A stretch of DNA of 64,000 nucleotides, taken from Thermaerobacter subterraneus DSM 13965. GTDB lineage: Bacteria > Bacillota > Sulfobacillia > Thermaerobacterales > Thermaerobacteraceae. Where the stretch lies: contig NZ_JH976535.1 of assembly GCF_000183545.2 (NCBI RefSeq), positions 572,840 to 636,839 on the forward strand, written 5' to 3'. A program made the position numbers and the translations under genes. Each line of letters opens with the position of its first letter. The first letter of the stretch is position 1. A model generated the notes under the pieces. The model was given only the letters and a program-made list of their open reading frames with translations. It made no database searches and was not told the DNA's origin. Shown in pieces: positions 1,271-31,396 of the stretch.

Positions 1271-2875
1271 CTACCCCACCAGCTCCCGCCGCAACGCCAC
1301 CTTGTTGATCTTCCCCGCGCTGGTTAGCGGCAGTTGCTCGACGAAGACGAACCGGTCGGGGATCCAGAAGCGGGCAAGCCGCCCCCGCTCTACCGCCGTC
1401 GCGAGATGGGCCCGGAGGGACTCTTCCAGGCGCGCCCGGGCCTCTTCGTCCGCCAGACCCCCGCGGGGCTGCACCACGGCCAGCGGCCGCTCGCCCCAGC
1501 GCTCGTCGGGCCGGGCGATGACGGCCACCGCCGCCACGTCCGGGTGCTCGGAGATCAGCGCCTCCAGCACGCCCGTGGCGATCCACTCGCCGCCGCTCTT
1601 GACGGCGTCCTTCTTTCGATCCACCACGTAGAGGGTGCCGTCGGGGTTCATCACGCCCAGGTCGCCTGAGCGGAACCAGCCGTCCTCGTAAACCCCTCGG
1701 CTGCGTTCGGGGTCCTTGTAGTAGCCGTCCGGCAGCCACGGCGAGCGCACCAGCACCTCGCCGATGCTCTTCCCGTCGGCGGGGACGGGTTGGCCGTTGT
1801 CGCCCTCCAGCCGGACCTCGACCATGGCCAGCGGTAGCATGTTCGTCCGGAGCGCCTCCCAGGCCTCGGGCGTGCCCGGCTCGACGCCCCGGGGCACCAC
1901 CGAGATGGTGGCCGCCAGCTGGTCGGAGCCGCCGTAGATCACGCTGTAGGCGATGCCCCGCTCCCGGGCCCGCCGCGCCAGCCCCGAAGGCACCGGGCTG
2001 CCCCCGGTGAGGACCTTGTACCCCTTGAGCTCGCCGACCCCCGCCTGGTCCGCCGCCTCCAGCAGCATGTGCAGTTGGGTGGGCACCATGTTGGACCAGG
2101 TGACCCCTTCGTCCAGGATCAGTCGCAGCTGCTCGGCGGGCGTGGCCTTACCCGGCAGCACCAGCTTGGCGCCCAGGTACGGGACGAACAGGGCGGTGCC
2201 CCAGCCGTGGATGTGGAAGAAGGGGATGCAGGGCATGTACACGTCGCGGCTCCCGGCCGCCGCCCCTGTGGGATGGATGGCCAGGTGGTGGAGGATCCCC
2301 AGGGACGCCAGCAGCATGTCCCGGTGCCGGTAGAGCATCCCCTTGGGCCGGCCCGTGGTGCCGGTGGTGTAGAAGATGGAATACGGGTCGGTCTCGCGGA
2401 CCTTCTCTGCCTCGTCCGGGACCTCGGCCCGGCCCTCGTGGACGAGGTCCTCATGGGTCGGCGTGCCCGGCTCGGGCGACTCGTCGCCGTCCGTCAGCCA
2501 GACCCAGTTCCGGAAGAGCGGCCGCGCCTTGGCCAGCGGCTGCCGGAACCCCTCCCATACGAACATCCACTCGACGCCGGCGTGCTGGAGGCTATAGAGG
2601 AGGTCGTCAGGCGGCAGGCGGAAGTTGATGGTGTGCAACACGGCCCCCAGCATGGAACTAGCGTAGTGCAGCTCCAGGTACCGGTGGCTGTTGACGTCCA
2701 TGACCCCCAGCACGGTGCCCCGGCCCACGCCCTGCTTCTTCAGGCTCTGGGCCAGGCGCAGCACCCGCTCGTAGAACTGCTCGTAGGTGAACCGCCGCCC
2801 CCCGTAGACGATCTCGGAGTCCGGCCTGTTGTGCAGCGCGCTCTTCAACACCTCGTGGACGACCAGCTCGCGCAC
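1271..2875 (-). CDS. Acyl-CoA synthetase (AMP-binding, fatty-acid CoA ligase)
   Basis: This 534-aa member of the ANL adenylating superfamily activates a carboxylic acid, most likely a medium- or long-chain fatty acid, to acyl-CoA with ATP and CoA. Seen: the phosphate-binding motif YTTGTTGRPKG at residues 169-179, the GxxSGDLG core and the VDRKKD hinge after it, and a C-terminal TSAGKINK carrying the expected catalytic lysine. Length is normal for the family. It is the last gene of a minus-strand operon after a TetR regulator and an acyl-CoA dehydrogenase, which points to fatty-acid degradation. Substrate chain length cannot be read from the sequence. Confidence 0.9.
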   Translation of the reverse strand: MRELVVHEVLKSALHNRPDSEIVYGGRRFTYEQFYERVLRLAQSLKKQGVGRGTVLGVMDVNSHRYLELHYASSMLGAVLHTINFRLPPDDLLYSLQHAGVEWMFVWEGFRQPLAKARPLFRNWVWLTDGDESPEPGTPTHEDLVHEGRAEVPDEAEKVRETDPYSIFYTTGTTGRPKGMLYRHRDMLLASLGILHHLAIHPTGAAAGSRDVYMPCIPFFHIHGWGTALFVPYLGAKLVLPGKATPAEQLRLILDEGVTWSNMVPTQLHMLLEAADQAGVGELKGYKVLTGGSPVPSGLARRARERGIAYSVIYGGSDQLAATISVVPRGVEPGTPEAWEALRTNMLPLAMVEVRLEGDNGQPVPADGKSIGEVLVRSPWLPDGYYKDPERSRGVYEDGWFRSGDLGVMNPDGTLYVVDRKKDAVKSGGEWIATGVLEALISEHPDVAAVAVIARPDERWGERPLAVVQPRGGLADEEARARLEESLRAHLATAVERGRLARFWIPDRFVFVEQLPLTSAGKINKVALRRELVG

Positions 2876-2978
2876 CGGACGCTCCCCCTTTCCACGTGGT
2901 CGGTGATCGTAGGCGGCCGCCGGCGGGCCGGCCGGCGCAAACCGCCCTTGTGGACTTCTCGTCCTCGCGGGGCGCGGC

Positions 2979-4598
2979 TCATGCCAGCCCCCGGAACCCT
3001 ACCGGCACGTCGGCCGACCACACCTCCGACCTCTCCAGCGCCCAGGCCGGGTACTCCTCGCCCAGGAGGAACCGGCGGGCATACAGGGCTGCCAGGTGGG
3101 CGTAGCGGTCGCCCGCGGTCTCGGCCAGCTTGTACAGCAGGCCCACCTGGGCGGCGTCGGCCAGCCGGGCGGTGGCATCCTTGGCGTACCACTGGGCTTC
3201 CTCGGGCTCGCTGCCGGCCAGCCGGACCAGGGTGCCCTCGATGACCTCGCGGGCGGTCCGGGCCTCGGGCGTGCCGGCCTTCTCCAACATGGCGATGAAC
3301 TCGGCCAGGAAGGCCTCGTGGGCCCGCTTCTTGTGCATGGCCTCCAGCAGGTCCAGGGCCTGGATGTTGCTGGGCCCCTCCCAGATGGGCGTGATCAGGG
3401 CCTCGCGGTGCCAGCGGGCCACGGCGTACTCCTCCAGGAACCCGAGCCCGCCGAAGAGCTCCATGGCCAGCCGCGTCACCTCGGCAGCGTGATCGGCGGT
3501 GCGGTTCTTGGCCAGGTGGGAGAGGAACCGGGCGTAATGGTAGCGGGACGTGTAGGGCGGTAACTCGTCCCACGCCTTCTCGAAGAGGTCGGCGGCGTGG
3601 AAGCCCAGCACCAGGCCGCCGGCGATGCGCACGGCCATGTCGGTTAGGTCCCGGCGAATCAGCGGGTGGTCCACCAGCTGCCGGCCGAAGGACCGGCGGC
3701 GCCGCACCCGCTCCAGCACCTCCAGGTGCGCCTTGCGGGCGATGCCCATGCCGGCGATGGCGTTGGCCAGCCGGGAGACCGTGAGGACCTCGAGGGTGTA
3801 GTAGATCCCCTTCTCCGCCTCGCCCACCAGGAAGGCCTCGCTGCCGCGGAAATCCACCTCACCCGAGGGGACGGCGCGGGTGGCGCTCTTGTCCTTGAGC
3901 CGGCGGACGTGGTAGTTCAGCTCGCCGGCCCGGTTCATCCGGGGCACGAGGAAGAGGGCCAGCCCCTTGGGCCCGGCGGGCGCCCCTTCCGGCCGAGCGG
4001 TGACGACGGCCACATCGGTCAGGCCGGCGCCGCTGCAGAAGTACTTCTCGCCGTCGAGGCGCCAGGCGTCGCCGTCACGGGTGGCCTGGAGGGTGTTGGC
4101 GCCCAGGTCGCTGCCGCCCTGGACCTCGGTCATCCAGGTGGCGCCCCAGAACTCGCCGCGGAGCAGCTTGGCCTTCCACTCGGCGAACTCCGGAGCGTAC
4201 TTATGAATCACATAGGCGGTCTGGTTGGTGATGGTCAGGATGCAGTAGATCCCCGGGTCGGCCACCAGGTAACCCAGGGCGTAGTGGTGGTGCCAGCTCC
4301 CGCCCTCGTAGGGTGGCCGGTTCATGGGCGCCAGCTCCCGGAGGAGCGCCTGCTGGGCCGGTGACAGGCGCACCCGGTCCACCCGGTGGCCGTCCAGGTC
4401 GTGCATGACCAGCACCGGCGGGGCGTCGTGGTCCACGTGGTAGGCGACCTCGTAGACCTCCTTCCCCGCCAGGGCGCCGAAGCGGCGCAGCTCGTCCTCA
4501 TGGGCGGTGAAACCCGGCCAGTAATGGGCCAACACGTGGCGCAGGTCCGGGTCCCGCTCCCAGTGGTTCTGCTCGTAGGCGTAGGACTGGTACCTCAC
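2979..4598 (-). CDS. AidB-like acyl-CoA dehydrogenase
   Basis: A 539-aa flavoprotein of the acyl-CoA dehydrogenase superfamily, catalysing alpha,beta-dehydrogenation of acyl-CoA with FAD. The segment TWMTEVQGGSDLGANT (about residues 154-169) and the long C-terminal extension are like the AidB subgroup rather than short 380-aa dehydrogenases. WEGPSNIQ (about 406-413) supplies the glutamate at the usual catalytic-base position. It lies 3 bases after the tetR stop and upstream of the acyl-CoA ligase, in one operon. The context favours a role in fatty-acid beta-oxidation over the alkylation-response role named for E. coli AidB. The residue region GGSWHHHYALGY is intact and no lesion is seen. Confidence 0.88.
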   Translation of the reverse strand: MRYQSYAYEQNHWERDPDLRHVLAHYWPGFTAHEDELRRFGALAGKEVYEVAYHVDHDAPPVLVMHDLDGHRVDRVRLSPAQQALLRELAPMNRPPYEGGSWHHHYALGYLVADPGIYCILTITNQTAYVIHKYAPEFAEWKAKLLRGEFWGATWMTEVQGGSDLGANTLQATRDGDAWRLDGEKYFCSGAGLTDVAVVTARPEGAPAGPKGLALFLVPRMNRAGELNYHVRRLKDKSATRAVPSGEVDFRGSEAFLVGEAEKGIYYTLEVLTVSRLANAIAGMGIARKAHLEVLERVRRRRSFGRQLVDHPLIRRDLTDMAVRIAGGLVLGFHAADLFEKAWDELPPYTSRYHYARFLSHLAKNRTADHAAEVTRLAMELFGGLGFLEEYAVARWHREALITPIWEGPSNIQALDLLEAMHKKRAHEAFLAEFIAMLEKAGTPEARTAREVIEGTLVRLAGSEPEEAQWYAKDATARLADAAQVGLLYKLAETAGDRYAHLAALYARRFLLGEEYPAWALERSEVWSADVPVGFRGLA

Positions 4599-4601
4599 GG
4601 T

Positions 4602-5345
4602 TCATCCCCCCTGCCGATCCGGCCGGGCGGCCGGCCGTCCGTCGCCGCCGCCATGCGAGCCAGCGACCGCGCCCGTCGCCCGTTCGCCCGTCGAACGGGC
4701 CGATGAACCGGCGGGCGCGCCGGCTGCCCTGATGCGCTCGATAAAGGCCAGTAACTGGGCCTCGCGGTCCGCCCTCGTCCATTCCGACAGCTCCAGCACG
4801 GCGAACAGGTTGAAGGCGGCGCCCAGGCTCATCATCTGCCAGGCGATGGCGCGGGCCGGGACGTCGCGGCGGATTTCCCCCCGCTCCTGCCCCTGCCGGG
4901 CGACGTCTTCCAGGTACCGGGCGTACTGGCGGTAACTCTCGGCCAGGAACTGGCGGATCTCCGGGTCGCTGTCCTCGGAGACGGCCTTGAAGAACACCTT
5001 CAGGTCCTCGCTGTTCCGGTCCACGAGATCCAGATAGTCCTGCCCGATCCGCCGCAGGCAGGCCAGGCTCGACGTCTCGGACCGGCGGATGGCGTTCCAG
5101 CGCCCAAGGATCCGCCGGTTCACGTTCTCCAGCACCGCCAGGAAGAGGTGCTTCTTGGACGGGTAATAGCGGTAGATGAGCGGCTCCGAGACGCCCGCCT
5201 CGGCGGCGATCTCCGCCGTGGTGCTCGACCGGTAATTGGACCGGGCGAAGACCGACTTGGCCGTGAGGAGGATCTGCTCGGGCCGTTTCGTTCTCGCTCG
5301 CCGCGGGCTGATCTTCGACTCACCCCCCGTCCGGCTCGGACGCAA
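4602..5345 (-). CDS. TetR/AcrR family transcriptional regulator
   Basis: A 247-aa regulator with an N-terminal helix-turn-helix typical of TetR proteins (TTAEIAAEAGVSEPLIYRYY, then SKKHLF) and a helical ligand-binding C-terminus. It heads the operon with acyl-CoA dehydrogenase and acyl-CoA ligase and probably represses it, relieved by acyl-CoA, as FadR-type TetR proteins do (inference). The in-frame start is a TTG at 5345 without a good ribosome site. An ATG at 5370 with AGGGGA in front is one base out of frame, separated by a run of six G (coding strand), so the true N-terminus is uncertain. The last ~30 residues are low-complexity. Confidence 0.88.
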   Translation of the reverse strand: MRPSRTGGESKISPRRARTKRPEQILLTAKSVFARSNYRSSTTAEIAAEAGVSEPLIYRYYPSKKHLFLAVLENVNRRILGRWNAIRRSETSSLACLRRIGQDYLDLVDRNSEDLKVFFKAVSEDSDPEIRQFLAESYRQYARYLEDVARQGQERGEIRRDVPARAIAWQMMSLGAAFNLFAVLELSEWTRADREAQLLAFIERIRAAGAPAGSSARSTGERATGAVAGSHGGGDGRPAARPDRQGG

Positions 5346-5409
5346 GCCGCGGACTGTGTTTGTGGATCATGGAGTCCCCTAATGACGGTGTCCAGACTGA
5401 AAGAAAAAG

Positions 5410-5429
5410 TGAGTGATTACTAACTAACG
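5410..5429. promoter_or_regulatory. Putative TetR-family operator
   Basis: The imperfect palindrome GTGAGTGATTACTAACTAAC pairs at 14 of 20 positions with its own reverse complement. It lies about 65 bases upstream of the tetR start, in the promoter region of the fatty-acid operon. Size and symmetry match the operators of TetR-type fatty-acid repressors. It is inferred from position and symmetry only. Confidence 0.45.
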
Positions 5430-5637
5430 AAATACGCACGATGGCGTCACAATCCTCCTGCCAACTCTCCACCGTCCCGGACAATTCGCGACATGTGCAT
5501 CATACAGCGGTGATCCACGGGGGTTCCGCTGGCCGGCGCGTAAACGACGAAGGGGATGACAAAGGGAAGGGTATAGGACTGATCGGCCGCCACGGCCATC
5601 GCCTGTGGCCATGCACGCACGCTCTTGTGCGGTACCG

Positions 5638-6411
5638 TCATGTTTCACGCGCCCAGTCGATCGGCATTAACCGCACAGCGTGAGAAAGGCTGAGAAGGTC
5701 CCAGAGAAAGGGCACATGCTCAAGACCGACGGTGACCAGTACCCGCCCGCCCAGGTATTCTGCGCAGACATCGACGATGTTGGCGGCCATGCGCAGGTTG
5801 CGGGCCTGCCAGAGGCGCGCCTCTTGGACGGGAAGGGCTTGCTGTTGCAGACGATGCTTGACACGGATCACCTCCATCACCGCGGGATCGAAAAACGCCC
5901 GCACGCCGCACTCGGACCGCCGGATCAATTGGAGAAAAACGTCTGTGACCGCCTGCCAGGCAGTTTCCACCGAATCTTTTTGGGCCACGCCGCAAGAAGC
6001 AACGTATTCGCCGTCTTCATCGGTGCCACGGGATCCGGCCTGGGCTTCACCGCCGGAACGCTGATTCGATTCGGCAACGTCTTCGTCCCGGTAAGCGTCG
6101 ATGGGGCGAAAGGCAATGCCTCTTTCTCGGCACAAGGGCAGGATACATTCCCTGTATTCCACCGGGCCGCAGTAGCCCTCACGTGTGCCGCCGGCCGTGG
6201 CCTCCCAATCTTCCGGGCGAACCTCCCCACATATGCAGTCGGGGTCGAAGGTCAGGATCAACGAACGCAGGATGTTGTAGTCGTAATGGGCGAAGGCCGG
6301 GTCCTTGTGCAGATCGTGCAGGGTCGGCAGGATGGCCACGGTGCAGGTGGCGGCGCTCCCATGGCCACGGTCGCCACGGTGGATCACGCGACGGTCGTCA
6401 TTATGGGCCAC
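5638..6411 (-). CDS. Uncharacterised protein, possibly TraB/ChaN-like
   Basis: A 257-aa soluble protein with no signal peptide or membrane segment. The N-terminal VAILPTLHDLH, a CGEVRPEDW motif near residue 60, an arginine-rich helix (RNLRMAANIVDVCAEYLGG) and a C-terminal VLVTVGLEHVPFLWDLL follow the pattern of the TraB/TIKI/ChaN/EreA superfamily: N-terminal H, GE, then R..M, then VG..H. That assignment rests on motif shape alone. It stands alone on the minus strand upstream of the TetR operon. Start is an ATG with GAGGTTTCA just upstream. A signalling or hydrolytic role cannot be claimed. Confidence 0.6.
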   Translation of the reverse strand: MAHNDDRRVIHRGDRGHGSAATCTVAILPTLHDLHKDPAFAHYDYNILRSLILTFDPDCICGEVRPEDWEATAGGTREGYCGPVEYRECILPLCRERGIAFRPIDAYRDEDVAESNQRSGGEAQAGSRGTDEDGEYVASCGVAQKDSVETAWQAVTDVFLQLIRRSECGVRAFFDPAVMEVIRVKHRLQQQALPVQEARLWQARNLRMAANIVDVCAEYLGGRVLVTVGLEHVPFLWDLLSLSHAVRLMPIDWARET

Positions 6412-6738
6412 GCGTGAAACCTCCTCGCCGGCGATCGGTCTTCTATCTGGTGTAACTCATACGCTAACTCCCAGCAACCTCCAGGCGCGCGAACTCCTAA
6501 CTTCAGCCCTTAATCCGCTCCATCTGTTAAGGTTCCATTTTATTACCATACTGCTTGCGATGGCCGTTGTCAGGTCCCTTGACACTTACTGGACAGGCCG
6601 AGAAAGGTGCTGCTGGATTAGTGGACGAGTGCGGGAATCTGCACCCACCACCTCATTTCCCAACCGGCAAGTCAGGTCAATCTCGTCCTCGAACCTCTAT
6701 TGCATCCGCCACTTACACCGCAGAAAGGGTGATCCGGT
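6412..6738. other. Intergenic region upstream of truncated pfpI
   Basis: No gene is visible. The half nearest the pfpI start resembles the sequence upstream of the intact copy at 11864 (shared blocks around 'attaccatact' and the AAAGGGTG(G/A)TCCGGT ribosome site). The duplication of pfpI therefore included its leader. Confidence 0.5.
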
Positions 6739-6942
6739 GTGGCCAAGGTGCTCATCCTCACGGGTGACGCCGTGGAAGCGCTGGAAGTCTACTACCCCCT
6801 GTACCGGTTGAAGGAAGCAGGGCACGAGGCCCACGTGGCGGCACCGACGAAGAAGACGTTGCGGACCGTCGTCCACGACTTTGAGCCGGGCTGGGAGACG
6901 TTCACGGAGAAGCCGGCCTACCAGCTGCAGGCGGACCTCGCG
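6739..6942 (+). pseudogene. PfpI/DJ-1 family gene, 5' part only
   Basis: The first ~68 codons are almost identical to the intact PfpI-family protein at 11864-12430 ([30 protein letters not shown], then [15 protein letters not shown]). Similarity stops abruptly after the codons for QADLA, where IS256 sequence begins; a short chimeric tail (TSRQEV) leads to a stop. The part with the nucleophile-elbow cysteine is missing, so the gene is dead. Start is GTG with AAAGGGTGATCC upstream. Confidence 0.85.
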
Positions 6943-8320
6943 GTCACGTCCCGTCAAGAGGTGTAAAATTTCTCTCGCCTTCGGGTTGGAGGAATCACAC
7001 AGCCAGCGCCTTCAGTGCCGTCCTGTCGCCGGATCGCTGAGAGCCCTCGCGGGGTGGGTTCGCATCGATCTTGGCCATGGACTCCAGGCTGAAGTACCGC
7101 CGGGAGACCAGCCACTCATCCTGCTGCTCCTCCAGAAGAGCCCCCAGCAGCCGCAGGACCGCGGCCACGTTCGGGCAGATCCCCACCACGTTGCAGCGCC
7201 GCGCGAGCTCCCGGTTCAGCCGCTCCAGGACGTTCGTTGAGTGGATCCGCCGCCAGTGCTCGGCCGGGAACGCCATGTAGGCCAGCACGTCCTCCACGGC
7301 GTCACGGAGCAGAGCGGCGGCTTGGGGAAATCGCTGGTCCAGGTTAGCGGCCACATGTTCGAGTTGCTCCCGGGCGGATGCCAGGTCGGGCTGGGCGAAG
7401 ATCGTCCGCACCAGGGCCGCCACCATCGGCTGGGCGTGCTTGGGCACCCGGGCCAGCAGGTTCCGCATGAAGTGCACCCGGCACCGCTGCCAGCTGGCGC
7501 CCGCCAGCACCTCGCTGATGGCACGCTTGAGTCCCTCGTGGGCATCCGAGATGACCAGGCGAACGCCCTTGAGCCCTCGGGCCACCAGGCTGCGGAGAAA
7601 CGCGAGCCAGAACTCGTACGTCTCGGCCGCTCCCACGTCAAAGCCCAGCACCTCAAGCTGCCCGGTTCGCGTCACCCCCACGGCGATGACCGCGGCCATG
7701 TTCACCACGCGATGGTCCTGCCGCACCTTGATCGGTTTGGCATCCAGCCATAGGTAGGGGTACTCGCCCTCCAGGGGGCGGTTCCGGAAACGCTCCATCT
7801 GTTCGTCCAGTTCCGCACAAAGCCGGGAGACTTCACTCTTGCTGATGCCGTCCAGGCCCAACGCCCGGACCAGGTCGTCGACCTTCCGGGTACTGACGCC
7901 CTGCACATACGCTTCCTGCACCACGGCGACCAGGGCCCGTTCCGCCCGCCGGCGTGGCTCCAGCAGGCTGGGGAAGTCGCTGCCTTGGCGGAGTTTGGGG
8001 ATCCGCAGCTCGATCGTCCCCACACGGGTGTCCCAGGGCCGCGAGCGGTAGCCGTTGCGAGACGTCTTCCGCGTCTCCGTGCGTTCGTACCGCTGAGCGC
8101 CGATCCGCTCCCTGACCTCGAGCTCCATGAGCTGCTGAGCCAGCCAGCGCAATCCTTCCCGCAGGGCATCGACTTCCGGCTCCCCCTGGTATTTGCGCAA
8201 AAGCTCGAGAAGTGCCATCTTGAACTCAGCGGTCACCGGTGAGCGGACCTCCCTTCGAGCCGGTTCTTGTCCAACCCGAAGGGGAGCCGCCGGTGACCTT
8301 TCTTGTCAAGGGCCACCAGG
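6943..8320 (-). mobile_element. IS256-family element (type A)
   Basis: It contains an intact IS256 transposase. The left end (gtcccgtcaagaggtgtaaa) resembles the terminal repeat of the second IS256 at 26256 (ctcaaaaggtgtgtaaa). The right end is less sure: a degenerate match (acctttcttgtcaagggcc) ends near 8320, but sequence shared with the remnant at 27722-27950 continues to about 8372. No target duplication is seen, and pfpI does not resume on the right, so the insertion was followed by deletion or recombination. Confidence 0.7.
6995..8236 (-). CDS. IS256-family transposase
   Basis: A 413-aa DDE transposase of the Transposase_mut (MULE) type. It carries the YLWLDAKPIKVR segment with the first Asp, VISDAHEGLKRAI with the second, the CRVHFMRNLLARVP block, and STNVLERLNRELARR with the catalytic Glu. 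Length and all three acidic residues are intact, so it is probably active. It lies on the opposite strand to the pfpI fragment it truncates. Confidence 0.92.
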   Translation of the reverse strand: MTAEFKMALLELLRKYQGEPEVDALREGLRWLAQQLMELEVRERIGAQRYERTETRKTSRNGYRSRPWDTRVGTIELRIPKLRQGSDFPSLLEPRRRAERALVAVVQEAYVQGVSTRKVDDLVRALGLDGISKSEVSRLCAELDEQMERFRNRPLEGEYPYLWLDAKPIKVRQDHRVVNMAAVIAVGVTRTGQLEVLGFDVGAAETYEFWLAFLRSLVARGLKGVRLVISDAHEGLKRAISEVLAGASWQRCRVHFMRNLLARVPKHAQPMVAALVRTIFAQPDLASAREQLEHVAANLDQRFPQAAALLRDAVEDVLAYMAFPAEHWRRIHSTNVLERLNRELARRCNVVGICPNVAAVLRLLGALLEEQQDEWLVSRRYFSLESMAKIDANPPREGSQRSGDRTALKALAV

Positions 8321-8672: not shown

Positions 8673-8712
8673 TAACCCTACATGGCCAAGACCATCCTCG
8701 AGGTGACAGTAG

Positions 8713-10995
8713 ATGATTGAAAAACTAATCGCCTTACGCGGAATTGGTCTGCTACATAATGCAGTTCCACAGCGAGCCGTAACCCTCAAGCCCATAACTG
8801 CCATATACGCCGAAAACGGACGAGGCAAGTCAACGCTAGCCTCTGTGCTTCGTGCCTTCTCGTGTGGCGACGCTACCGCCATCAACGCAAGGACAACCAT
8901 AGGCGGACAAAATGGACCGACTGTACACTTACGGCTGAACGGCAGAAACTATCAGTTTCGCGATGGCCAATGGACAGCCAGTTACGACAAAATCCTCGTC
9001 TTTGACTCGGAATTCGTTGATAAGAATGTATGTTCCGGAAGCCGAATTGAGCCCGCCCACCGTGAAAATCTTTTGGAATTCGCCCTAGGCGAAACTGGTG
9101 TTCGGCATAAAAGAACTATTGACAAGATTATTGAAAAGATCAGGCATATACAAAACACTCTTCGAGAATTGACGGCGGAAATTGCGCGACATTCAGGGCC
9201 ATACCAAGTAAGTGAGTTCGTGCAGCTCCAACCCGAACCCGATATAGAAAGTCGTTTGAAAGAGTTGAAGCAACGTTTGGCTGACGCAAAGCGAGTTGAT
9301 GACTTCCTGCATCGCCCGGTTCCACGGCAGCTACAGATGCCAGAGTTTGATATTGAAACGGTATCTACGATTCTCGGAAAGTCGTTGGAAAGCGTTGATA
9401 ATGATGTAGAGGAAATTGTGAAGGTACATATAGCGCGCCGCCTCGGAGGCCACGGTGAGCAATGGTTACGTGAAGGTTTGGCGTACCTGCGGCATGGAGA
9501 CGAGTGCCCGTTTTGCGGACAGGGACTACACGGGATTACTCTCGTAGAGGCATACAAGGTCTATTTTAACGCCGCCTATGAGGCATTGAAAAGGCAGATA
9601 GAAGTTGCACTGCAGGAGGTTCAGAAGACTTTTAGTCACGAGAACTGGAGTGCAATTAGCGAGATTTTTCAACTGAATGAACTGGCAGGCAGAATGTGGA
9701 GTGATCGCTTCGATTGTAATTTCGCCAAGATGGTGGATATAAATGCCCTACGGCGTACATGGGACGCTCTTCGTGATAATGCAATTGAGCTGTTACGACA
9801 GAAACTAGCCGCTCCGTTACGTCAACTTCATGCCCAAGAATTGGTTGCTGATGTAAAGACGAAATATCTGGAAATGCGAAAGCAGGTTGACGCATATAAC
9901 GAGGCAATAATTCGGGTTGTTAGGGACATCGAGGCGCTCCAAAGTTCTCTAAAGGTGGAGAATATGGACCGCCTCGAAAATGATATCGAATGCTTAGAAG
10001 CAGCACAGAGGCGATTGCTGCCGGAAGTCTCTAGGGTGTGTCAACGCTATCAAAGATTCGAAAATGCAAAAAGGTTACTTGAGCGTTGCAAGGATGAACT
10101 GCGTGAGCAGCTTCACGACTACACAGAACAATTGTTGGCCACATACAGGGACACTATCAACAACCTGCTGGACCGGTTTGGTGCTAATTTCTCGATTGTG
10201 GAAATCGGGGTGAGGCATACTGGCGGTAGGGCTCGCACTGAGTATCGACTGAGAGTCTTGGGTGAGACTATTCCAGTTGTCTCGCCGGGAGGAAGGAGTG
10301 ATGTTCCTTCCTTAGTTACTACGTTGAGTGAAGGAGATAAGCGGACGCTTGCTCTTGCGTTCTTCTTGGCGAGGGTAACCTTGGAGCAAAGTATGGAGGA
10401 TTGCATCATTGTAATTGATGATCCGGTTTCAAGTCTTGATATGGGGCGTCGACGTGCTACGCGAGATGCTTTGCTGAAGGTTGCCACACGGTGTTCTCAA
10501 TTGATTGTGCTATCACACGATGCTCTATTCTTACGCGATGCGTTGGAAAAAATTGCTGATGATGGAATATGGACGTGCCTACAGTTGACGAGGCGTGGTG
10601 ACTACAGTGTTCTAGAAGGGTGCGACATTCATCGCATATGTCGAGACGATTATTATCGGAGTTATGAATTGCTCTTGAATTATCTGACATCGGGTCCAAA
10701 TGGAAATGAAGCCGAGGTCGCTAGGACTATTCGGATATACTTAGAACATAACCTGCGGAATCGATATCCGGTTGAGCTGGAAGGGGCTAAGAACCTTGGT
10801 AAGATGATCGAACGCATTCGGAACGATTTGTCTAGGTTTGGGCAGCTGGCGGCCAGACTAGATGATCTCGTGCAACTTAATGACTTTTGTAGTCCGTTCC
10901 ACCATGGTACTGACGACCGGCCGCCTGATCCGACCGACAGTGAGCTACGCCCGATGGTAAGGCTAGCATTGGAAATTGGCAGGGGCGAGAGATAA
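8713..10995 (+). CDS. AAA_13-type ATPase with zinc-hook motif (PrrC/RloC-like)
   Basis: A 760-aa SMC/Rad50-style ATPase. Seen: a degenerate Walker A AENGRGKST (residues 33-41), a long coiled-coil region, a zinc-hook-like CPFCG (Cys265, Cys268), an ABC signature LSEGDKRTLAL (about 538), Walker B IIVIDDPVSSLD (about 569) and an LSHD switch. About 170 residues follow, ending in NDFCSPFHHG. This architecture is that of the AAA_13 family, which includes the anticodon nucleases PrrC and RloC and other defence ATPases. The C-terminal domain has R674-x3-E678 and His730/731, reminiscent of the PrrC R-x3-E...H triad but with wider spacing, so nuclease activity is only a guess. ATG with GAGGTGA upstream. 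Codon use is clearly AT-richer than in neighbours, a sign of transfer. Confidence 0.8.
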   Translation: MIEKLIALRGIGLLHNAVPQRAVTLKPITAIYAENGRGKSTLASVLRAFSCGDATAINARTTIGGQNGPTVHLRLNGRNYQFRDGQWTASYDKILVFDSEFVDKNVCSGSRIEPAHRENLLEFALGETGVRHKRTIDKIIEKIRHIQNTLRELTAEIARHSGPYQVSEFVQLQPEPDIESRLKELKQRLADAKRVDDFLHRPVPRQLQMPEFDIETVSTILGKSLESVDNDVEEIVKVHIARRLGGHGEQWLREGLAYLRHGDECPFCGQGLHGITLVEAYKVYFNAAYEALKRQIEVALQEVQKTFSHENWSAISEIFQLNELAGRMWSDRFDCNFAKMVDINALRRTWDALRDNAIELLRQKLAAPLRQLHAQELVADVKTKYLEMRKQVDAYNEAIIRVVRDIEALQSSLKVENMDRLENDIECLEAAQRRLLPEVSRVCQRYQRFENAKRLLERCKDELREQLHDYTEQLLATYRDTINNLLDRFGANFSIVEIGVRHTGGRARTEYRLRVLGETIPVVSPGGRSDVPSLVTTLSEGDKRTLALAFFLARVTLEQSMEDCIIVIDDPVSSLDMGRRRATRDALLKVATRCSQLIVLSHDALFLRDALEKIADDGIWTCLQLTRRGDYSVLEGCDIHRICRDDYYRSYELLLNYLTSGPNGNEAEVARTIRIYLEHNLRNRYPVELEGAKNLGKMIERIRNDLSRFGQLAARLDDLVQLNDFCSPFHHGTDDRPPDPTDSELRPMVRLALEIGRGER

Positions 10996-11863
10996 GGGTG
11001 GGCGAGAGCGGGACCGTGTAGTTGGATGAGCGAGATAGCGGGCTACTGCGTACGATTTGGAGGTACCAGGTAGGGATGATGTCTACTCGGGACAAGGGTA
11101 CTCCCAAAGGGGCGCCGTAAATGGCTTGCCACAAGGGTCCAACGTAGTAGCGTTGATGGGCAACTCGGTTCAATTGTGAACCTGTTTTGTGCGGTGAGAA
11201 GTGTTGGCATGATTAGGTTGGGCGTCCTCGTGAGGGCGTGTGGTTTCGCTTGGCCGCCTGCGAATTGGTTGTAGGAACGGTAGCCGGTGTTTTGGGATGT
11301 CGCCAAGCGCAGGATGTCGTAGTGCCCCAAGGCTGGGACCTTGTGTCGGTGGTGCAGGGTAGGTAAGGATAGCCGCGGTGCAGCTAACTACACCGTTATT
11401 ACGATAGTTGTGAGGGTGGCTCATCCGATGGATCCTTATCAGTGGCCAAGCCTGAAGCTTACTCATCGTCCATCAGCCATCCATCTGCACTGTCCGTACT
11501 GAGACAAACCACCAACGGCTTGAGCACGCCCAGATGCCCTGCCTTCATTGTCTGGCGCAGTTCATTGCCTCATGTTCCACATATTACCATACTACTTGTT
11601 ATTTCCGCCACCGCCAGGCCCCCCACCACTAGCGAAGCCGGAGAGGGAGCTGTTAAATTATTTGTTGGAACGACGTGGTTCGCTTCCGGCCTTACTCCCG
11701 CCGCACGGCGACCGGCTCTCGGTACGCGTCGGACCGCGCCGATTCGGATGTTTCGGATTCGGCGGGTGCGGGAGTGTCCACCAATCTCCTTAAAGTAGAT
11801 CCATCTCACCCCTCGCTCTTCTGTCGCACATGCCATTTACATACACGGAAAGGGTGGTCCGGT
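10996..11863. other. Gene-free region, about 870 bases
   Basis: No ORF with coding character is seen. The first part keeps the lower GC of the ATPase island. From about 11573 the sequence resembles the leader of the truncated pfpI (near 6534), so the duplicated pfpI segment probably begins there. Confidence 0.5.
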
Positions 11864-12430
11864 ATGGCTAAGGTGCTCATCCTCACGGGCGATGCCGCGG
11901 AAGCGCTGGAAGTCTACTACCCCCTTTACCGCCTGAAGGAAGCAGGGCATGAGGTGCACGTGGCGGCACCGACGAAGAAGACGTTGCGGACCGTCGTCCA
12001 CGACTTTGAGCCGGGTTGGGAAACGTTCACGGAGAAGCCGGCCTACCAGCTGCAGGCGGACCTCGCCTTTGCCGGCGTCAAGTCGGAGGAGTACGACGGG
12101 CTGATCCTGCCCGGCGGCCGGGCGCCGGAATACATCCGGCTGAATGAGCACGTGCCGCGCATCGTGGGCCACTTCTTTGAGGCCAACAAGCCCATCGGCG
12201 CCATCTGCCATGCCGCCCTGGTATTCGCGCGGCTGAAGGAGCACTTGAAGGGCCGGAAGTTGACGGCGTACACCGCCTGCCGGCCGGACGTGGAGTCTCT
12301 GGGCGCGTCCTACGTCACCGAGCCGCTACACGTGGACGGCAACCTGGTCTCCGCCCACGCGTGGCCGGATCTGCCCGGCTTCATGCGGGAGTTCCTGCGG
12401 CGGCTGGAGGAGTTCGCCGGCAACCGGTAG
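11864..12430 (+). CDS. PfpI/DJ-1 family protein (protease/glyoxalase-like)
   Basis: A 188-aa class I glutamine-amidotransferase-like protein. [17 protein letters not shown], then [11 protein letters not shown] with the nucleophile-elbow cysteine followed by His, then [13 protein letters not shown] are typical of PfpI/YhbO/DJ-1 proteins, which act on protein damage or glyoxals in stress defence. ATG at 11864 sits behind AAAGGGTGGTCC, giving the same N-terminus as the other copies; a longer frame upstream is not credible. A related copy is at 53449-54012 and a truncated one at 6739. A rho-independent terminator follows at 12493. Confidence 0.9.
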   Translation: MAKVLILTGDAAEALEVYYPLYRLKEAGHEVHVAAPTKKTLRTVVHDFEPGWETFTEKPAYQLQADLAFAGVKSEEYDGLILPGGRAPEYIRLNEHVPRIVGHFFEANKPIGAICHAALVFARLKEHLKGRKLTAYTACRPDVESLGASYVTEPLHVDGNLVSAHAWPDLPGFMREFLRRLEEFAGNR

Positions 12431-14382: not shown

Positions 14383-15936
14383 CAGCCCGTGTTGGTAATG
14401 CCGTTGGCCCTCGAAGTCGCTGGTCTTTGAAAACGTCAGACGGCCGCGCCCAGGCATGGGAGCGGTCGGTACCCCTTGCTCAGGAGGTGGCGATCGCCTC
14501 CATCCGGCGGGCAAGCGCGTGGTGGCGCCAGAGCTTCATGAGGTTGAAAGCGGTACAACTGAAGAGCCACTCGAAGCGGGCTTTCGACAGCCCACGGAGA
14601 AGCAGCTGCCGGAGTCCCATAGCTTCTTTGAGGTGCCCAATGACCGGCTCCACCGAGCACTGGCGGAGTTTGTAGCGGCGGCGCCCCCGAACGGTTCGCA
14701 GTTTGCGGCGCATCCGGTCCCTGGCCGTCATGTGTTTTGGCATCCGCCCCCGGGGTGGCTGGCGTTGGCGCCATTCCGTATGACGGATCTTATCCGGCGG
14801 GATGAAGGCTTCGACACCCCGCTCCTCCAGAGCCTGGAGGTTGGCGTCGCTGTAATAACCGGCGTCGGCGGAAAGCTCCCTGGGGTGGCACCCGGTGTTG
14901 ACCTCGACTTGTTGCAGCTGGCCCAGGAGATGAGGCGCGTCGGCGGCCTGGTTCGTCAGGTCCGCCGCCACGATGACGTGCGTTTCCGCGTCCACGGCCA
15001 GTTGGGCGTTGTAACCCTGGATGAAGGCCTTGTCGGCGCTGCGCAGGATCCGCGACTCGGGGTCGGTGAAGTTGATTTGATCCTTGTCGGCCGGGAGGGG
15101 GTCGGACGGGGCTTGCTTGCGGCGGGAGCGGCGCCCCTTCTTCGCCGCCTCCGCCTCCCGCGCCGCTTCCTTGGCTTCGGCCTCGGCCCGGGCCCGCTGC
15201 TCCAGCCGGGCCTTGGCCGCCTGAATCGCCTTCAGCCGCTTTTCCGCCGTGGCCAGCTCGGGAGGCAGGCGCCAGCCACTGTCGGAGCCGTGTTCGTCAT
15301 CCTCCGCCCGGTCGTTGGCCTCAACCTCTTCCAAGTAGCGCCGGATCTCCTCCGTCAGGCGCCGTTCCTCCTCCTTCATCCGGCCGTAGCTCATGGCGCT
15401 GTGCTTGGAGGCGTAGGCCTTGAGCTTGGTCCCGTCCACCGCCACGTGCCGGAGCTTCACCAGCCCCGCCTCCTGGGCCAGGCGAACCGACTGGACAAAC
15501 AGCCGGGCCAGGGCTTCATGGTGCCGGCGCCGGAAATTCGACAGCGTCCAGTGGTCGGGCTGCTGATTCGCCGCAAGCACCCGGAAGCCCACGTCTTCGT
15601 ACAGGGCCCGCTCCAGGCGCCGTGAGGAGCGGATGCCCCGCATGTACGCGTACACCCACACCTTGACCATCATGCGCGGTTCGTAAGGGGGCTGGCCCCG
15701 GCGCTCGGTGTAGTCGTTGTAGACCGCTGACAGGTCGAACTGGTCGACCACCTGGCTGATGAAATGGACCGGGTGATCCTCCGGGAGCCACTCGTCCAGC
15801 GCAGGAGGCAGGATCATGAGCTGATGGGGTTGGTAGTCCCGAAACTTCTTCCTGTTCATAGTCTTTCTTCTTCGGCATGTCAGCCGAAAAATACTGCCCG
15901 ATCGCCTGGCTGATGCAGCGTTATTCACACGGGCTG
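14383..15936 (-). mobile_element. IS1182-family element (type A) inside the NSS gene
   Basis: The inverted ends cagcccgtgt...taa match each other, and both sides carry the palindrome CTAG (14379-14382 and 15937-15940), a 4-bp target duplication. Removing the element plus one CTAG restores the NSS frame exactly. Fragments of the same element occur at 58740-58872 and 60962-61026. Confidence 0.88.
14480..15859 (-). CDS. IS1182-family transposase (type A)
   Basis: A 459-aa transposase. The N-terminal DUF772-type region (LPPALDEWLPEDHPVHFI, then RGIRSSRRLERALYEDVGFR and ANQQPDHWTLSNFRRRH), a VAVDGTKLKAYAS block with the first Asp, ELSADAGYYSDAN and a C-terminal CSVEPVIGHLKEAMGLR are characteristic of IS1182. 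Between them is a charged, Ala/Arg-rich coiled segment. The true start is ATG 15859; the open frame continues upstream only because it fuses with the NSS gene. It appears intact. Confidence 0.92.
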   Translation of the reverse strand: MNRKKFRDYQPHQLMILPPALDEWLPEDHPVHFISQVVDQFDLSAVYNDYTERRGQPPYEPRMMVKVWVYAYMRGIRSSRRLERALYEDVGFRVLAANQQPDHWTLSNFRRRHHEALARLFVQSVRLAQEAGLVKLRHVAVDGTKLKAYASKHSAMSYGRMKEEERRLTEEIRRYLEEVEANDRAEDDEHGSDSGWRLPPELATAEKRLKAIQAAKARLEQRARAEAEAKEAAREAEAAKKGRRSRRKQAPSDPLPADKDQINFTDPESRILRSADKAFIQGYNAQLAVDAETHVIVAADLTNQAADAPHLLGQLQQVEVNTGCHPRELSADAGYYSDANLQALEERGVEAFIPPDKIRHTEWRQRQPPRGRMPKHMTARDRMRRKLRTVRGRRRYKLRQCSVEPVIGHLKEAMGLRQLLLRGLSKARFEWLFSCTAFNLMKLWRHHALARRMEAIATS

Positions 15937-16771
15937 CTAGCACGCTGAAGACCGCCAGCCCCGCCAGGAAGTCGAAGCTGGAATTGGCGAAGACGGTGAT
16001 GAAGGCGCTGTTCACCAGGTCCGACTTCCGGGGCAGATAGCTGGCGTAGGCGATCATCACGCCCACCGCCAGGGTGGCCGAGAAAAACACCTGACCGTAA
16101 GCCGCCACCCAGACCTGCGGGTCCAGGATCTTGGAGAAGTCCGGCTACAGGAAGAAGTTGAGGCCGTGGGCTGCGCCGGGCAAGGTGAGGCCCCGGATGG
16201 CGATGATCACCATCAGGATCCCCAGCGTGGGGGTCATCCACCGGCAGGCCGCCTCGATACCGGCGGAGATGCCCTTGATCGAGTAATAGTAGTTCACCCA
16301 CCAGATGACGGCGGTGGCGACGAGCAGGTGCCACCGGATCCCCTGGAAGTCCCACGGACCGGCCGACACGCCCAGGAATTGGCGGCTGAAGAAGGCACCG
16401 GGATCCGCACCCCAGGCCTGGGTGAAGGAGTAGATCATGTAATTCAGCGCCCAGCCGATGATCACGCTGTAATACGTGACCACCACGACCGGGATCATGA
16501 CCTGCCACCAGCCGATCCACTCCCACTTCCTAGAGAGGCGGCCAAAGGCGCTGATGGCAGCCGCCCGCATCTTGTGGCCGTAGCCGAATTCCAGGATCAT
16601 CAGCGGCACGCCGGCGGTGAGAAGGGCGACGAAGTACGGAAGAAGGAAGGCGCCGCCGCCGTTCTCATAGGCCATGAAGGGAAACCGCCAGAAGTTGCCC
16701 AGCCCCACCGCGGCACCGACGGTGGACAAGATGAAGCCGGCGCGGGATCGCCATTGATCACGCGCTTCCAC

Positions 16772-17198
16772 GACCGCCTGCCTCCTTGAGGCCCCAGAAA
16801 GGGCGCCGGGGTACTCCACCTTTGGCCGAGTTCCTGCCGCGGACCGAGTCTCGGCCGCGAGGTCCTCGCGTGCCGGCCGTCCTCGGTGCCGGCCGCACTG
16901 CTGAAGCCCCCACCGCAACGGCGGTGGGGGCTTCTGACAGCCGCCCGCCAGGGCAGGAGCGAGTGGCTGAACCATTCGCTGAAGAACGTACCACAGGAAC
17001 CGTAAAGAGCACCACGATGCCCCCGGAAACGAGATCCTGCCCCTCGCACTGGGAAGCCGCTGCAGGCTCGCACGCCATCCCCTGCCTCCACGCGGCCTGC
17101 CCCTTGCTTGGGAGTCGGCAGGCCGGCACCCAGGGCCCGCGGCCTGCCGGGGACGTGGGCGCACCCAACGACTGCGGCCAGCCAGGTGGAGTTGACCC
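16772..17198. other. Leader of the NSS gene
   Basis: About 430 bases upstream of the NSS start with no gene on either strand. It contains a strong terminator-like hairpin (16903-16934) ahead of the coding region, so transcription attenuation is possible. No SAM riboswitch or convincing T-box signature could be made out. Confidence 0.45.
16903..16934 (-). terminator. GC hairpin in the NSS leader
   Basis: gaagcccccaccg / cggtgggggcttc pair perfectly across a short loop, about 130 bases upstream of the NSS start. In the minus direction the stem is followed by AGCAG rather than a T-run. It may terminate an upstream transcript or act as an attenuator. Confidence 0.55.
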
Positions 17199-17274
17199 GG
17201 TTTCGTGGACGGGTTGAGGCTTATGCCACAATCCCTTCCTGGGGCTGAACCTTTCGCTCCTGCTTCCAACGCTC
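17199..17274 (+). repeat. 76-base dispersed intergenic repeat, copy 1
   Basis: Aligned without gaps to 38637-38712 it matches at 60 of 76 positions, starting ggtttcgtgga and ending caacgctc in both. Both copies lie between genes. The rest of this spacer (17275-17642) holds no recognisable gene. Confidence 0.7.
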
Positions 17275-17642
17275 CTATCTCGATGTTGTCGTCCCAAACT
17301 CGTTGTTGCTCTCTCTTTCTCAGCTTTTCGCGGTTCGCCTGGGTGAGTCCGTATACCGGACGGACAGAACTGTGGGTCCTTTCGCAGAGAGACAAATCAA
17401 GAGCGGTAGGGAAGAGCCTCGCTCGACTCTTCAGACATGGCCGGTATACTGCCGCCTGGACGGGTCCCACGTGTTCCGCCCCCGGCTACCCTATCATGTC
17501 TCCCGGGGTCTTGCCCTGAAAGTCCTTCGTCCTGCCTAATGGGGGCGGGTGGGGCACCAGGACTCGTATGCAGGGTCATGCCCTTAAGGAGCGTTTCGGT
17601 TTCCCCCACCCAAAGCGGCACATCGATTGGCACACCGCCTTC

Positions 17643-18966: not shown

Positions 18967-19410
18967 TCAACCGCATCCTACGCCATCACAGGACTGCTCG
19001 TATTCGTCGGGCGAGAGGTAGCCAAGTGCCGAGTGACGGCGCCGCCGGTTATAGAACCCTTCGACGTACTCGAAGATCGCCATGCGCAGCTGATCCCGGC
19101 TCGCCCAGGTTTGCCGGTCGAGGAGTTCTGTCTGCAGCGTCGCGTAGAAACTCTCGGCCACGGCGTTGTCCAGTGCATCGCCCACCGAACCCATCGACCC
19201 GGCGATGCCGAGGGCCTCCAAGCGACGGGTGAACGCCAACGAGGTGTACTGTGCTCCGTGGTCGGAGTGGTGGATCAGGCCGGGCCCCGGCCGGCGACGC
19301 CGCACCGCCATGGTGACGGCGTCGACCACGAGATCCGCCACGGGCCGGTCGCCCATGGCCCAGCCCACCACGGCGCGGGAGAAGCCGTCCACCACTGTGG
19401 CGAGGTATAA
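18967..19410 (-). pseudogene. IS3-family transposase OrfB, C-terminal half
   Basis: The rve integrase core starts abruptly inside LYLATVVDGFSRAVVGWAM, exactly where the IS1182 copy begins (19411). It continues with IHHSDHGAQYTS (second Asp), DNAVAESFYATLQTEL (catalytic Glu) and YNRRRRHSALGYLSPDEYE to a normal end. The N-terminal half and OrfA are not found on the other side of the IS1182 element, so more than a simple insertion occurred. Confidence 0.85.
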
Positions 19411-21030
19411 GAGCCTGTTGCACCGACCCTGAGAGATCGGGCCTAGTGGGAACGTACCGGGTCGATTCGCTCATGTCACATGGGCTGACGGTCAGGACTG
19501 TGTAGGCCGGCGGCCCGATCGTGACCCTTCTACGCCAAGCCCGCCACCGTACATTCAAAGGGCAAGGTGGCGGATCGCTCCCTGACCCTCCGCCAGAGCT
19601 TCAGCAAGTTGTGGGTCAAGCAAAGCAGCTTCCACTCGCTGTCACACGCCGCCAGACCCCGACGGAGGAACCGGTCGGCGCCTCGCACGGCCTTGATCTG
19701 CCCGAACACCGGCTCCACGGTCTGGCTGCGCTTGGCGTAGATCGCCTGCCCTCGCCGGGTCCGCAGCTTGCGTTCCATCCGCTCCCGCAGGCTCAGCCCC
19801 TTGGGGATGCGGCCTCGCGGAGGGGGTGTGTCCTTCCAGGCTTGGCGCTGCTTCCACTCTTTACTCGTCGCCAGGAACAGTTCCGGCCCATCCGCCGGTG
19901 CCTGCTTCACGTTCGCCTCGCTCCAGTACCCCGCGTCGGCCACGACAGCCCGGATGGGCTCGTCCACGCCCGCGGCCCGCAGGTTGGCTTGCGCCTGCTG
20001 GAGCATCGGGTGCAGTTGGCCCACGTCGTTGGCGTCCTGCGTCACCGCCGCGGCCACGATGAGTTGGTCTCCGTGACCACCGCCTGGGCGTTGTACCCTT
20101 GCACAAAGCCCTGCCGGGTCTTGAGGATCCGGCTGTCCGGATCCGTGATGTTGGCCTTGGCTGCCGGATCCACCGAGGCATCCGGCGCCTTCGGCTTCCG
20201 CCCCTGCCGCTTCTTGCCGGTCGCCTGCTCCTGGGCTTTCCGCTCCTCGATGCGGGCCTGCTGCCGGGCCGCTTCCCGGGCCGCCTCGTCCTCCAGCCGC
20301 CGCTTGCATGCCTTCAGCCGCTCCAGCCGGCTCTGGCGGGAGCGCAGTTCCTCCGGCAACTCATCCCCACGGCGCCCGGGGCCGTACCGCTCATCTTCTT
20401 CCCGGTCCGTGGCCTCCGCTTCCCGGAGCATCTTCTCCACTTCCTGGCGAATCGCATCGTAGGTGCGGTTGGCCGCCAGCGAGGCGTTGGCCTTGACTTT
20501 CGTCCCGTCCAGTGCCACCACGCCCACCTTCCCCAGCCCCGCCTCCCGGCACAGCCGCAGCACCTGGGTGAACAGCGCGGCCAGCTCCCGTGCATGGCGC
20601 TGGCGGAAGCGGGCGATGGTCACGTGATCCGGCTTCTGGTTGGCGGTGATCACCCGGAAGGCCACGTCCTCGAGGCACAACCGCTCGATCCGCCGGCTCG
20701 ACCGCTCGCCGACGCAGTAGGCGTACAGCAGGAGCGTCACCATCAGGGTTGGGTCGTAACTCTCTCCGCCCCAACCGTCGGCGCGGTACTTCTCGTAAAA
20801 GGCCCGCAGGTCCATCTGCTCGACGGCGTCGATCAGAAACCAGGCCAGGTGGTCCTCGGGCAGCCCGTCGCGAAGGCTCGGTGGGAGCAGGTACAGTTGG
20901 TCACGGTTCACCGGGCGAAAGTTGTAGGCCATAGGGACACCTCGGGCGATGGCGAATGCGAACCAATGGCCTCACTTAAACCCACGTGGGTGCAATCCTG
21001 TGGAAATACCTGGGTTCGTGAAACAGGCTC
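19411..21030 (-). mobile_element. IS1182-family element (type B), copy 1
   Basis: It is bounded by gagcctgttgcac on the left and gtgaaacaggctc on the right. Length is 1,620 bases, one shorter than copies 2 and 3, which matches the single-base deletion in its transposase gene. No target duplication is evident. Confidence 0.88.
19530..20932 (-). pseudogene. IS1182-family transposase (type B), frameshifted copy
   Basis: Nearly identical to the 467-aa proteins at 24829-26232 and 59460-60863. It reads normally from MAYNFRPVNRDQLYLLPPSL to AVVTE, then one base is missing near 20069 (ggtctcc where the others have ggtcctcc or an equivalent in-frame codon). The rest (LIVAAAVTQDANDVGQLHPM onward) is in another frame. 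The copy should be inactive unless supplied in trans. Confidence 0.9.
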
Positions 21031-21452
21031 TACAGCCAGAGGTATAATTCAGGGAATGAGAAACACTCCCTCGGGGCCATGGGTCCGCAACTCCAGCACG
21101 TACGCCATCATGGTATCCTTACAGAGCCGGTGGTGGTTGACGGGATGGCACAGGCGCGCCTGCGGATGCAGCCTGAGGTCATTGGGGTGTTGGGTCAGCT
21201 AGCGATTGCGCCAACAGTAACTGGAAGCAATGTGGGCTATCGAGGAGCGCGACGGCTCGGTACTCCTTTCCTCAGGTTGCTCCATCGAGAACGTCCGCCG
21301 GGATTGGTTTGTTTTTCCTAACCAGGCTATATCCTGGTGCCAATACTCGATAACGAGGTGTCACTGCAAATCGTCATACGATGCGGCGGACAGGCCCGAC
21401 TCTCACCGAATATGTCACTACCTCCTATGACACAATCTATGGAGGTTCAAGT
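21031..21452. other. Leader region of the methylase fusion gene
   Basis: About 420 bases without a recognisable gene. GC falls towards the methylase start, and the last 100 bases, AT-richer, should hold its promoter. A small palindrome (caggcgcgcctg) lies near 21150. Confidence 0.45.
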
Positions 21453-24730: not shown

Positions 24731-24828
24731 GAGCCTGTTTCACGAACCCAGGTATTTCCACAGGATTGCACCCACGTGGGTTTAAGTGAGGCCATTGGTT
24801 CGCATTCGCCATCGCCCGAGGTGTCCCT

Positions 24829-26232: not shown

Positions 26233-26255
26233 AAGGGTAACGACCGGGCCGCCGG

Positions 26256-31000: not shown

Positions 31001-31396
31001 CTCCTTCCGGCAAGCCAGCTCGTCCATTTGGTTGTTGATCTGCTCCAGGGCCTTTCCCTTAACCCAGCCAGTCTCCGCGAGGAAGGCTGCGAGCCGCTCG
31101 AGAAACGACCGCCGAAGCGGGTCGCCCTCGTGGCTCCACGCGTCGAAGACAAAAACCCGCACCTTATCCGAGTTCCGTTCTACTGCCTGCTGGAAGAGCC
31201 TGACCACGGTGGACTTCCCGCTGCCCCATCCCCCGAGTAGGGCCACCGCCTTTCCGCCACTTGAGTTCAGGACAAGATCCACCAACGCCCGCGCTGTTAA
31301 CTCGTGACCTCCGCCCAAAGCGTCCTCCGCGCTCGGATCGTCTGCGAGTAGGTAGGTTGGGCAGATTTCTCGCTTCCTTGCAATTTCAGCTTCCAT
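28046..31396 (-). CDS. KAP-family P-loop NTPase, membrane-anchored
   Basis: A 1,116-aa protein. Walker A GGWGSGKST (residues 55-63), the KAP signature FVFDAWSHEGDPLRRSFLERL, two membrane helices (about 148-165 and 174-197) inserted within the ATPase as usual for KAP proteins, and Walker B LVIVVDNLDRL (251-261). The C-terminal ~700 residues are helical and show no known domain. KAP NTPases include the phage-exclusion protein PifA, and they commonly occur in mobile or defence regions. This one stands alone between IS elements. A defence role is inference. ATG 31396 is the first in-frame start; composition is closer to the host than for the other two defence candidates. Confidence 0.85.
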   Translation of the reverse strand: MEAEIARKREICPTYLLADDPSAEDALGGGHELTARALVDLVLNSSGGKAVALLGGWGSGKSTVVRLFQQAVERNSDKVRVFVFDAWSHEGDPLRRSFLERLAAFLAETGWVKGKALEQINNQMDELACRKESVYSQTSPVMTREGYWIGFFLTLGIPLGTALLSSQPIYQAPLWFSVLGVAALLSPFFVALYFMIRGLRAEGRFEFPSLVGQNRTETRTSTLRTPEPTSVEFEARFKDILDRAVTDDRRLVIVVDNLDRLPAEQARSVWATMRTFFDVRGAAWSEKIWLIVPFDPSAICHLWGNVQSDGENLTEVFISKFFQTRLHVPPPVLSDWKSFLFKRLREAFPRHHQEELYAVYRVYRNLVLRGDGQPAPRELKQFVNLVGSQHRIWQDAIPLPMQALYVALKEELAKNPRVALSKREAEVKKLFPEEEKWKDYLLAQHFNVEPNKALQVLFLEEIRKGLEAPGSPVLRETARQVRPEALGTLVLEALEEAGEWAEKAPELLAKAALAIKEVGGLLPEEDQRQALGLLRSRATSAGGWKMGDDEVVQGLMVLVASAPGAEERCRLIGVILRGAEAPSGNEVIKDAAKGLADFLDRVKRELDLGVPEDFRFPVQEPADWILVLSALDFWELEDEVQKAFTPRKPPEVLGELVARVGRGEFRMTEALATRALSYIDQGWDWKGLVNSLRGRLATGNRYTDEEVRAAIYALLQLEPISEEARNALRDLATSWFLLHHLAYANDGKTLGTLLLPLLIYNPTGQSQPLGGGASQGAQRYAGFLQNPKGVDLQGMAELLAELSESRETDFSVQSVIKAVKRNPQAKELVATLLDHLKEAYPEVFSPEILLEHGKDLSELLGEEAFEAMCRRRQDEIVEAAQSRGFALNLLPAYRRILRAAADGPAEAFIHFLGEGLKGLQKSDWSHLLKEGCGSDALARLRELRGRGFPVELDHRLADALEEGATALLEDEAAYDPTAIRAYLEFLTADARKNLSARMARSVSRLLVEYRDWGAEKFLGAVGEVVVEGAEEVGVEDLKHLLVTWLPNALTRFSQTELEWFAKLLEKRRALVTGLEKSIRVEALNRVQDAQTTVGDERPREALKGIASVLREEEAED

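Follow-up and report, generated by a model that had tools for sequence, protein, structure and literature searches.

A candidate stand-alone RloC-type anticodon nuclease with a long-spacer R/E/H triad in Thermaerobacter subterraneus

Is a solitary, low-GC gene of Thermaerobacter subterraneus DSM 13965 that encodes a zinc-hook ATPase a repair gene of the Rad50 kind, or does its product carry an RNase that cuts tRNA? This question arises in a 64,000-nucleotide stretch of the genome (contig NZ_JH976535.1), here called the window, to which all coordinates refer. The original prediction, made from the single sequence, was that the C-terminal part of the protein recalls the catalytic residues of the anticodon nucleases PrrC and RloC. 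RloC was defined by PrrC-like ABC motifs, a coiled-coil insert with a CX2C hook and a C-terminal Arg-X3-Glu-X36-52-His set, in proteins of 658 to 897 residues (Davidov and Kaufmann 2008, PMC2610378). Mutating any residue of the triad abolished tRNA cleavage by Geobacillus kaustophilus RloC (PMC2610378), and linear DNA or double-strand breaks switch on both this enzyme and the RloC of Acinetobacter baylyi (Klaiman et al. 2013, PMC3874168). The activity that marks RloC is cleavage of tRNA at the anticodon, or excision of the wobble nucleotide. Judging from sequence and conservation, we consider the protein to be probably a stand-alone RloC-type anticodon nuclease, with a probability of about 75%. 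Most likely it is an ordinary RloC protein, from a family already known, and does not represent a new system.

Architecture of the ATPase and zinc hook

The gene (8713 to 10995, plus strand) starts with ATG and encodes 760 amino acids of a Rad50-like ABC ATPase that matches the Pfam family AAA_13 (E=1.4e-37). A plausible ribosome-binding site, GAGGTG, was read directly at 8700 to 8705 on the same strand. All further features of the protein also lie on the plus strand. Walker A, ENGRGKST, occupies residues 34 to 41 (8812 to 8835; GRGKS is residues 36 to 40). Two coiled-coil arms follow, at residues 114 to 256 (9052 to 9480) and 277 to 488 (9541 to 10176), both of them helices in the predicted structure, with the zinc hook CPFC (residues 265 to 268, 9505 to 9516) between them. 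The ABC signature LSEGD (residues 538 to 542, 10324 to 10338) and Walker B, IIVIDDP (residues 565 to 571, 10405 to 10425), were recognised in the sequence, and the switch histidine H602 (10516 to 10518) lies within LSHD at residues 600 to 603. Upon checking of the residue numbers, the Walker motifs, coiled coil, hook and signature were all present as first described.

To assess conservation, we aligned 65 homologues with 18 to 32% identity to the query. The ATPase residues N35, G38, K39, S539, D569, D570, S574, D576 and H602 were invariant, as was C268 of the hook; C265 was kept in 64 of the 65 homologues. W251 and F551 were likewise invariant. Together with R674, E678 and H731 of the C-terminal domain, the invariant columns number 15. 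An AlphaFold2 model built with the same homologues had a mean pLDDT of 90.7, the hook tip being its least certain part, and presented a head of the Rad50/SMC type with SMC and Lamassu structures among its fold matches. Sequence comparison of the protein with solved structures returned only Rad50/SMC and other ABC heads.

An invariant triad in a C-terminal HEPN-like domain

The C-terminal region was originally given as a 170-residue domain. In the predicted structure it is smaller, at about 115 residues (helices 646 to 757), and residues 585 to 640 belong to the ABC head. We therefore place an all-helical, HEPN-like putative RNase domain at residues 646 to 760 (10648 to 10992), on the evidence of the model, Foldseek and a profile match. 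Modeled in isolation, the domain had a pLDDT of 93.2, a pTM of 0.86 and six helices; R674 and E678 share one predicted helix and H730/H731 end another. When this model was compared with the PDB by Foldseek, HEPN proteins dominated the top ranks, but the best E-value was 0.44 and none was significant. The HEPN entries among the top matches included 2q00, 2hsb, 8pe3 (Csm6'), 1o3u and 1ufb, with TM scores of 0.47 to 0.62; 2hsb gave a probability of 0.97 and a TM score of 0.62. Of these, 2q00, 2hsb and 1o3u are HEPN proteins according to PMC3710099, in which the RNase domains of RloC and PrrC are also classed as HEPN. The fold comparison points to HEPN, at E-values that are not significant.

The HEPN motifs agree in part. 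E678-x3-R682 fits the Ex3[KR] motif described in PMC3710099. For the Rx4-6H motif, no Arg lies 4 to 6 residues ahead of H730/H731; the residue closest to that position is N723, and the conserved Arg sits in R-x3-E instead. No Pfam family recognises the domain, a sequence search of solved structures with it gave nothing useful, and a search of a viral fold library gave nothing convincing. We regard a HEPN fold as likely, though not proven.

The proposed catalytic residues were found where they had been predicted: R674 (10732 to 10734), E678 (10744 to 10746) and the pair H730-H731 (10900 to 10905). By itself, an R-x3-E...H pattern in a single sequence is weak evidence. When we searched the last 180 residues of each of 369 unrelated neighbour proteins, R-x3-E-x36-52-H occurred in 86 (23%). 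The evidence becomes strong only because the residues are conserved across homologues. R674, E678 and H731 were kept without exception in the 82 homologues whose sequence extends to the C-terminus, and they were the sole invariant columns in an alignment of the isolated domain (61 sequences). Homologues lacking these residues had been named beforehand as counterevidence; close and distant relatives alike keep all three. Of the two His named in the original prediction, both are present and H731 is the invariant one, H730 being found in 73 of the 82 homologues with Ser, Asn or Lys in some of the others.

Since H731 is the triad His, the spacing from E678 is 52 residues (E-x52-H). The original prediction had counted about 51 and treated this as a caution, taking the 31 residues of PrrC as its yardstick. 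That caution falls away, as x31 applies to PrrC alone and x52 fits the x36-52 published for RloC.

Relation to RloC, PrrC and PDC-S06

In layout, the protein resembles RloC in having an ABC ATPase interrupted by a coiled coil that bears a CX2C hook, in its length of 760 residues within the 658 to 897 range, in R-x3-E-x52-H within x36-52, and in belonging to a horizontally mobile group usually unlinked to restriction-modification (R-M) genes. It differs in having His-His rather than Ser-His at the catalytic His, and in a spacer that lies at the upper limit of that range, which most of its clade exceeds. These two differences divide the relatives. Most of the distant ones combine Ser-His with x37-44, in agreement with the published description of RloC. 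In a tree of 84 sequences, 8 such short-spacer relatives stood apart, with a support of 0.93, from a branch of 76 sequences that contains our protein. This branch is mostly His-His with x50-58, commonly x54, and so runs slightly past the published RloC range.

We then compared the C-terminal domains of the two groups by hhalign, the short-spacer RloC-like set coming from a class-wide sample that leaves out the G. kaustophilus and A. baylyi RloC sequences. The long-spacer domain matched the RloC-like domains at E=2.8e-4 with a probability of only 41%, and R, E and H were in register; identity to the short-spacer proteins is about 20%. Two of four tested short-spacer RloC-like proteins clearly matched the PrrC model through their C-terminal region, and so extend the chain of matches to PrrC. 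Conservation among homologues and this profile tie together support the PrrC/RloC-like reading of the triad, and turn what was a single-sequence hunch into an assignment backed by conservation.

In PrrC, too, the ABC ATPase comes first and a nuclease domain with R-x3-E...H comes after it. It is a protein of 341 to 416 residues with no coiled-coil or hook insert, has x31, and is invariably linked to type Ic R-M (PMC2610378). In PADLOC, the PrrC profile matched our protein at residues 539 to 607 only, the ABC signature region. With its hook and x52, the protein is not PrrC proper, and HSDR_N (PF04313) had no match anywhere in the genome.

If the protein acts as the characterised RloC enzymes do, it would dimerise through its ABC heads and zinc hook, and its Rad50-like head would detect linear DNA ends left by damage or by an attacking phage. 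Hydrolysis of ATP would then free the C-terminal HEPN-like domain from restraint, and R674, E678 and H731 would cut host tRNA at the anticodon in a metal-free manner. Cleavage of tRNA would in turn halt translation and phage spread. We propose this whole mechanism by transfer from the RloC proteins of G. kaustophilus and A. baylyi (PMC2610378, PMC3874168), and it is by this analogy that we infer an RNase activity, a tRNA target, a DNA-end trigger and an antiphage role.

The main rival keeps the RloC architecture and switch, and with them a Rad50-like, DNA-end-sensing HEPN RNase, and lets it cut mRNA or rRNA in place of anticodons. HEPN domains have varied RNA targets (PMC3710099), and the clade has its own spacing, His-His for Ser-His and a place in the tree separate from the short-spacer RloC-like proteins. 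Set against this is the invariance of the full R-x3-E...H triad, which G. kaustophilus RloC needs for tRNA cleavage (PMC2610378), and we judge a different RNA target to be unlikely.

In PADLOC, the best profile for the protein was PDC-S06 (E=2.7e-76, residues 1 to 703), an unpublished PADLOC label for a candidate defence class. All 65 aligned homologues match a PDC-S06 model, and this includes the short-spacer RloC-like proteins, which do so at E-values down to 1e-284. Since these proteins are covered, PDC-S06 seems to contain RloC in a broad sense rather than to compete with it; a broad candidate class is thereby found to include proteins of the RloC type in which the nuclease triad is complete. 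With 76 of the 84 tree sequences, the long-spacer His-His branch is large, and we found no biochemically studied member of it. Testing one member would show whether the DNA-break-triggered tRNA cleavage of RloC reaches this branch.

Among the 25 PADLOC matches listed there was no Septu PtuA and no retron ATPase, both of which had been suggested for comparison. LmuB profiles did match (E=2.8e-20), and with SMC and Lamassu structures among the fold matches this raises the alternative of an ATPase of the Lamassu or SMC kind that depends on a separate effector, its C-terminal domain having a structural role only. LmuB and our protein are alike in their SMC-like ATPase and differ in the extra triad-bearing C-terminal domain of the latter. 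The LmuB matches span the coiled coil and ATPase only, and PDC-S06 scores far better. There is no apparent LmuA- or LmuC-like gene adjoining, the neighbours being an insertion sequence (IS) transposase and a PfpI-like gene, and an invariant C-terminal R/E/H set would be unexpected in a structural appendage. We hold this alternative to be very improbable.

Genomic setting

The gene is horizontally acquired. The AT-rich composition noted at the outset was borne out: its GC is 0.48 and its GC3 0.47, whereas the core metabolic genes closest to it have 0.70 to 0.71 and 0.94 to 0.95. Positions 1271 to 6941 of the window have a collinear counterpart in a congener, at 92 to 96% identity. At 6942 a Mutator/IS256-type insertion element begins (to 8371, end approximate; Pfam Transposase_mut), with its transposase on the minus strand at 6995 to 8236. 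This element cuts a PfpI-like gene at 6941; the same PfpI gene is intact in the congener, which carries a homologue of the element elsewhere. The order is thus a truncated PfpI-like gene, the insertion element, a low-GC segment with the RloC-type gene, and a second PfpI-like copy at 11832 to 12413. The PfpI-like genes that flank the low-GC segment are the truncated one at 6708 to 6941 and the intact one just given, and a third copy lies on the minus strand at 53449 to 54012. Within the 20 kb of the congener that were compared, collinearity is not regained ahead of 26255, where there is an IS-type match. At 14480 to 17470, a DDE transposase gene apparently interrupts a sodium:neurotransmitter symporter-like gene; the ORF of the transposase gene starts with a symporter remnant. 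An IS1182-like element is present in three copies at 95 to 96% identity (19410 to 21030, 24731 to 26255 and 59340 to 60961).

In such an IS-rich, rearranged region the gene could be a copy that has decayed or fallen silent and now serves no function. Its frame is full-length, all ATPase, hook and triad residues are intact and it is preceded by a plausible ribosome-binding site, which leaves decay with only a slim chance. Least probable of all is a housekeeping DNA repair ATPase of the Rad50/SbcC type, which would share the ABC head, coiled coil and zinc hook, since Rad50 and SbcC are without the extra HEPN-like C-terminal domain (PMC2610378), no Mre11/SbcD-type nuclease gene adjoins, and the gene is absent from congeners and sits in a low-GC segment among IS elements.

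The original prediction had also noted that there are no adjacent hsd genes. This holds for the immediate neighbours, but the same strand carries an R-M-like fusion at 21381 to 24173, 10.4 kb downstream. It joins HSDR_N_2, N6_Mtase and type I specificity-like parts in a single chain of 930 residues, and is a possible, unproven partner. The missing hsd genes had been offered as a caution, which loses its force, as RloC is normally unlinked to R-M (linkage to type I or III systems in 8 of 73 cases, PMC2610378). The fusion is the genome's only match to PF02384 (N6_Mtase) and is flanked by IS1182-like transposases. With a GC of 0.49 and a GC3 of 0.47, its composition matches that of the RloC-type gene, and composition and proximity alone make a shared origin of the two possible. 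A more far-reaching idea is that the long-spacer His-His clade is a functionally distinct RloC branch that cuts a tRNA or other RNA of its own or answers to a trigger of its own, and that its member here once partnered the R-M-like enzyme; both genes would have entered the genome together and later been separated by IS insertions. We offer this tentatively and regard it as unlikely. Elsewhere in the window, a gene at 28046 to 31396 encodes a 1116-residue P-loop NTPase of the KAP family whose PifA/QatA-like matches are weak; it is possibly a defence gene.

Distribution of homologues

Relatives that match over the full length, with an identity of about 30%, occur widely, both on plasmids and on chromosomes. 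In a sample of the host phylum, relatives were present in 2 of 399 genomes, one of these being the genome itself, and the gene was absent from the three congeners in the sample. A search of genome contigs and viral contigs with the single protein returned no relatives, and an alignment-based query did find relatives. Phage records yielded just two weak partial matches, and hence give no evidence of phage carriage.

We also inspected 81 homologue loci. About 11 had a DNA methylase within 5 kb, a count in which one locus was included only for its similar layout. The homologues are therefore normally solitary, in line with the published account of RloC. The R-M-like fusion downstream of our gene gave no more than weak general matches to the methylases that adjoin homologues, and we therefore claim no conserved pairing. 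At three loci (L009, L053 and L055), a recurrent methylase-type gene pair of about 583 and 1020 to 1050 residues is divergent from the homologue, and pair and homologue may possibly form a conserved R-M plus RloC-like module.
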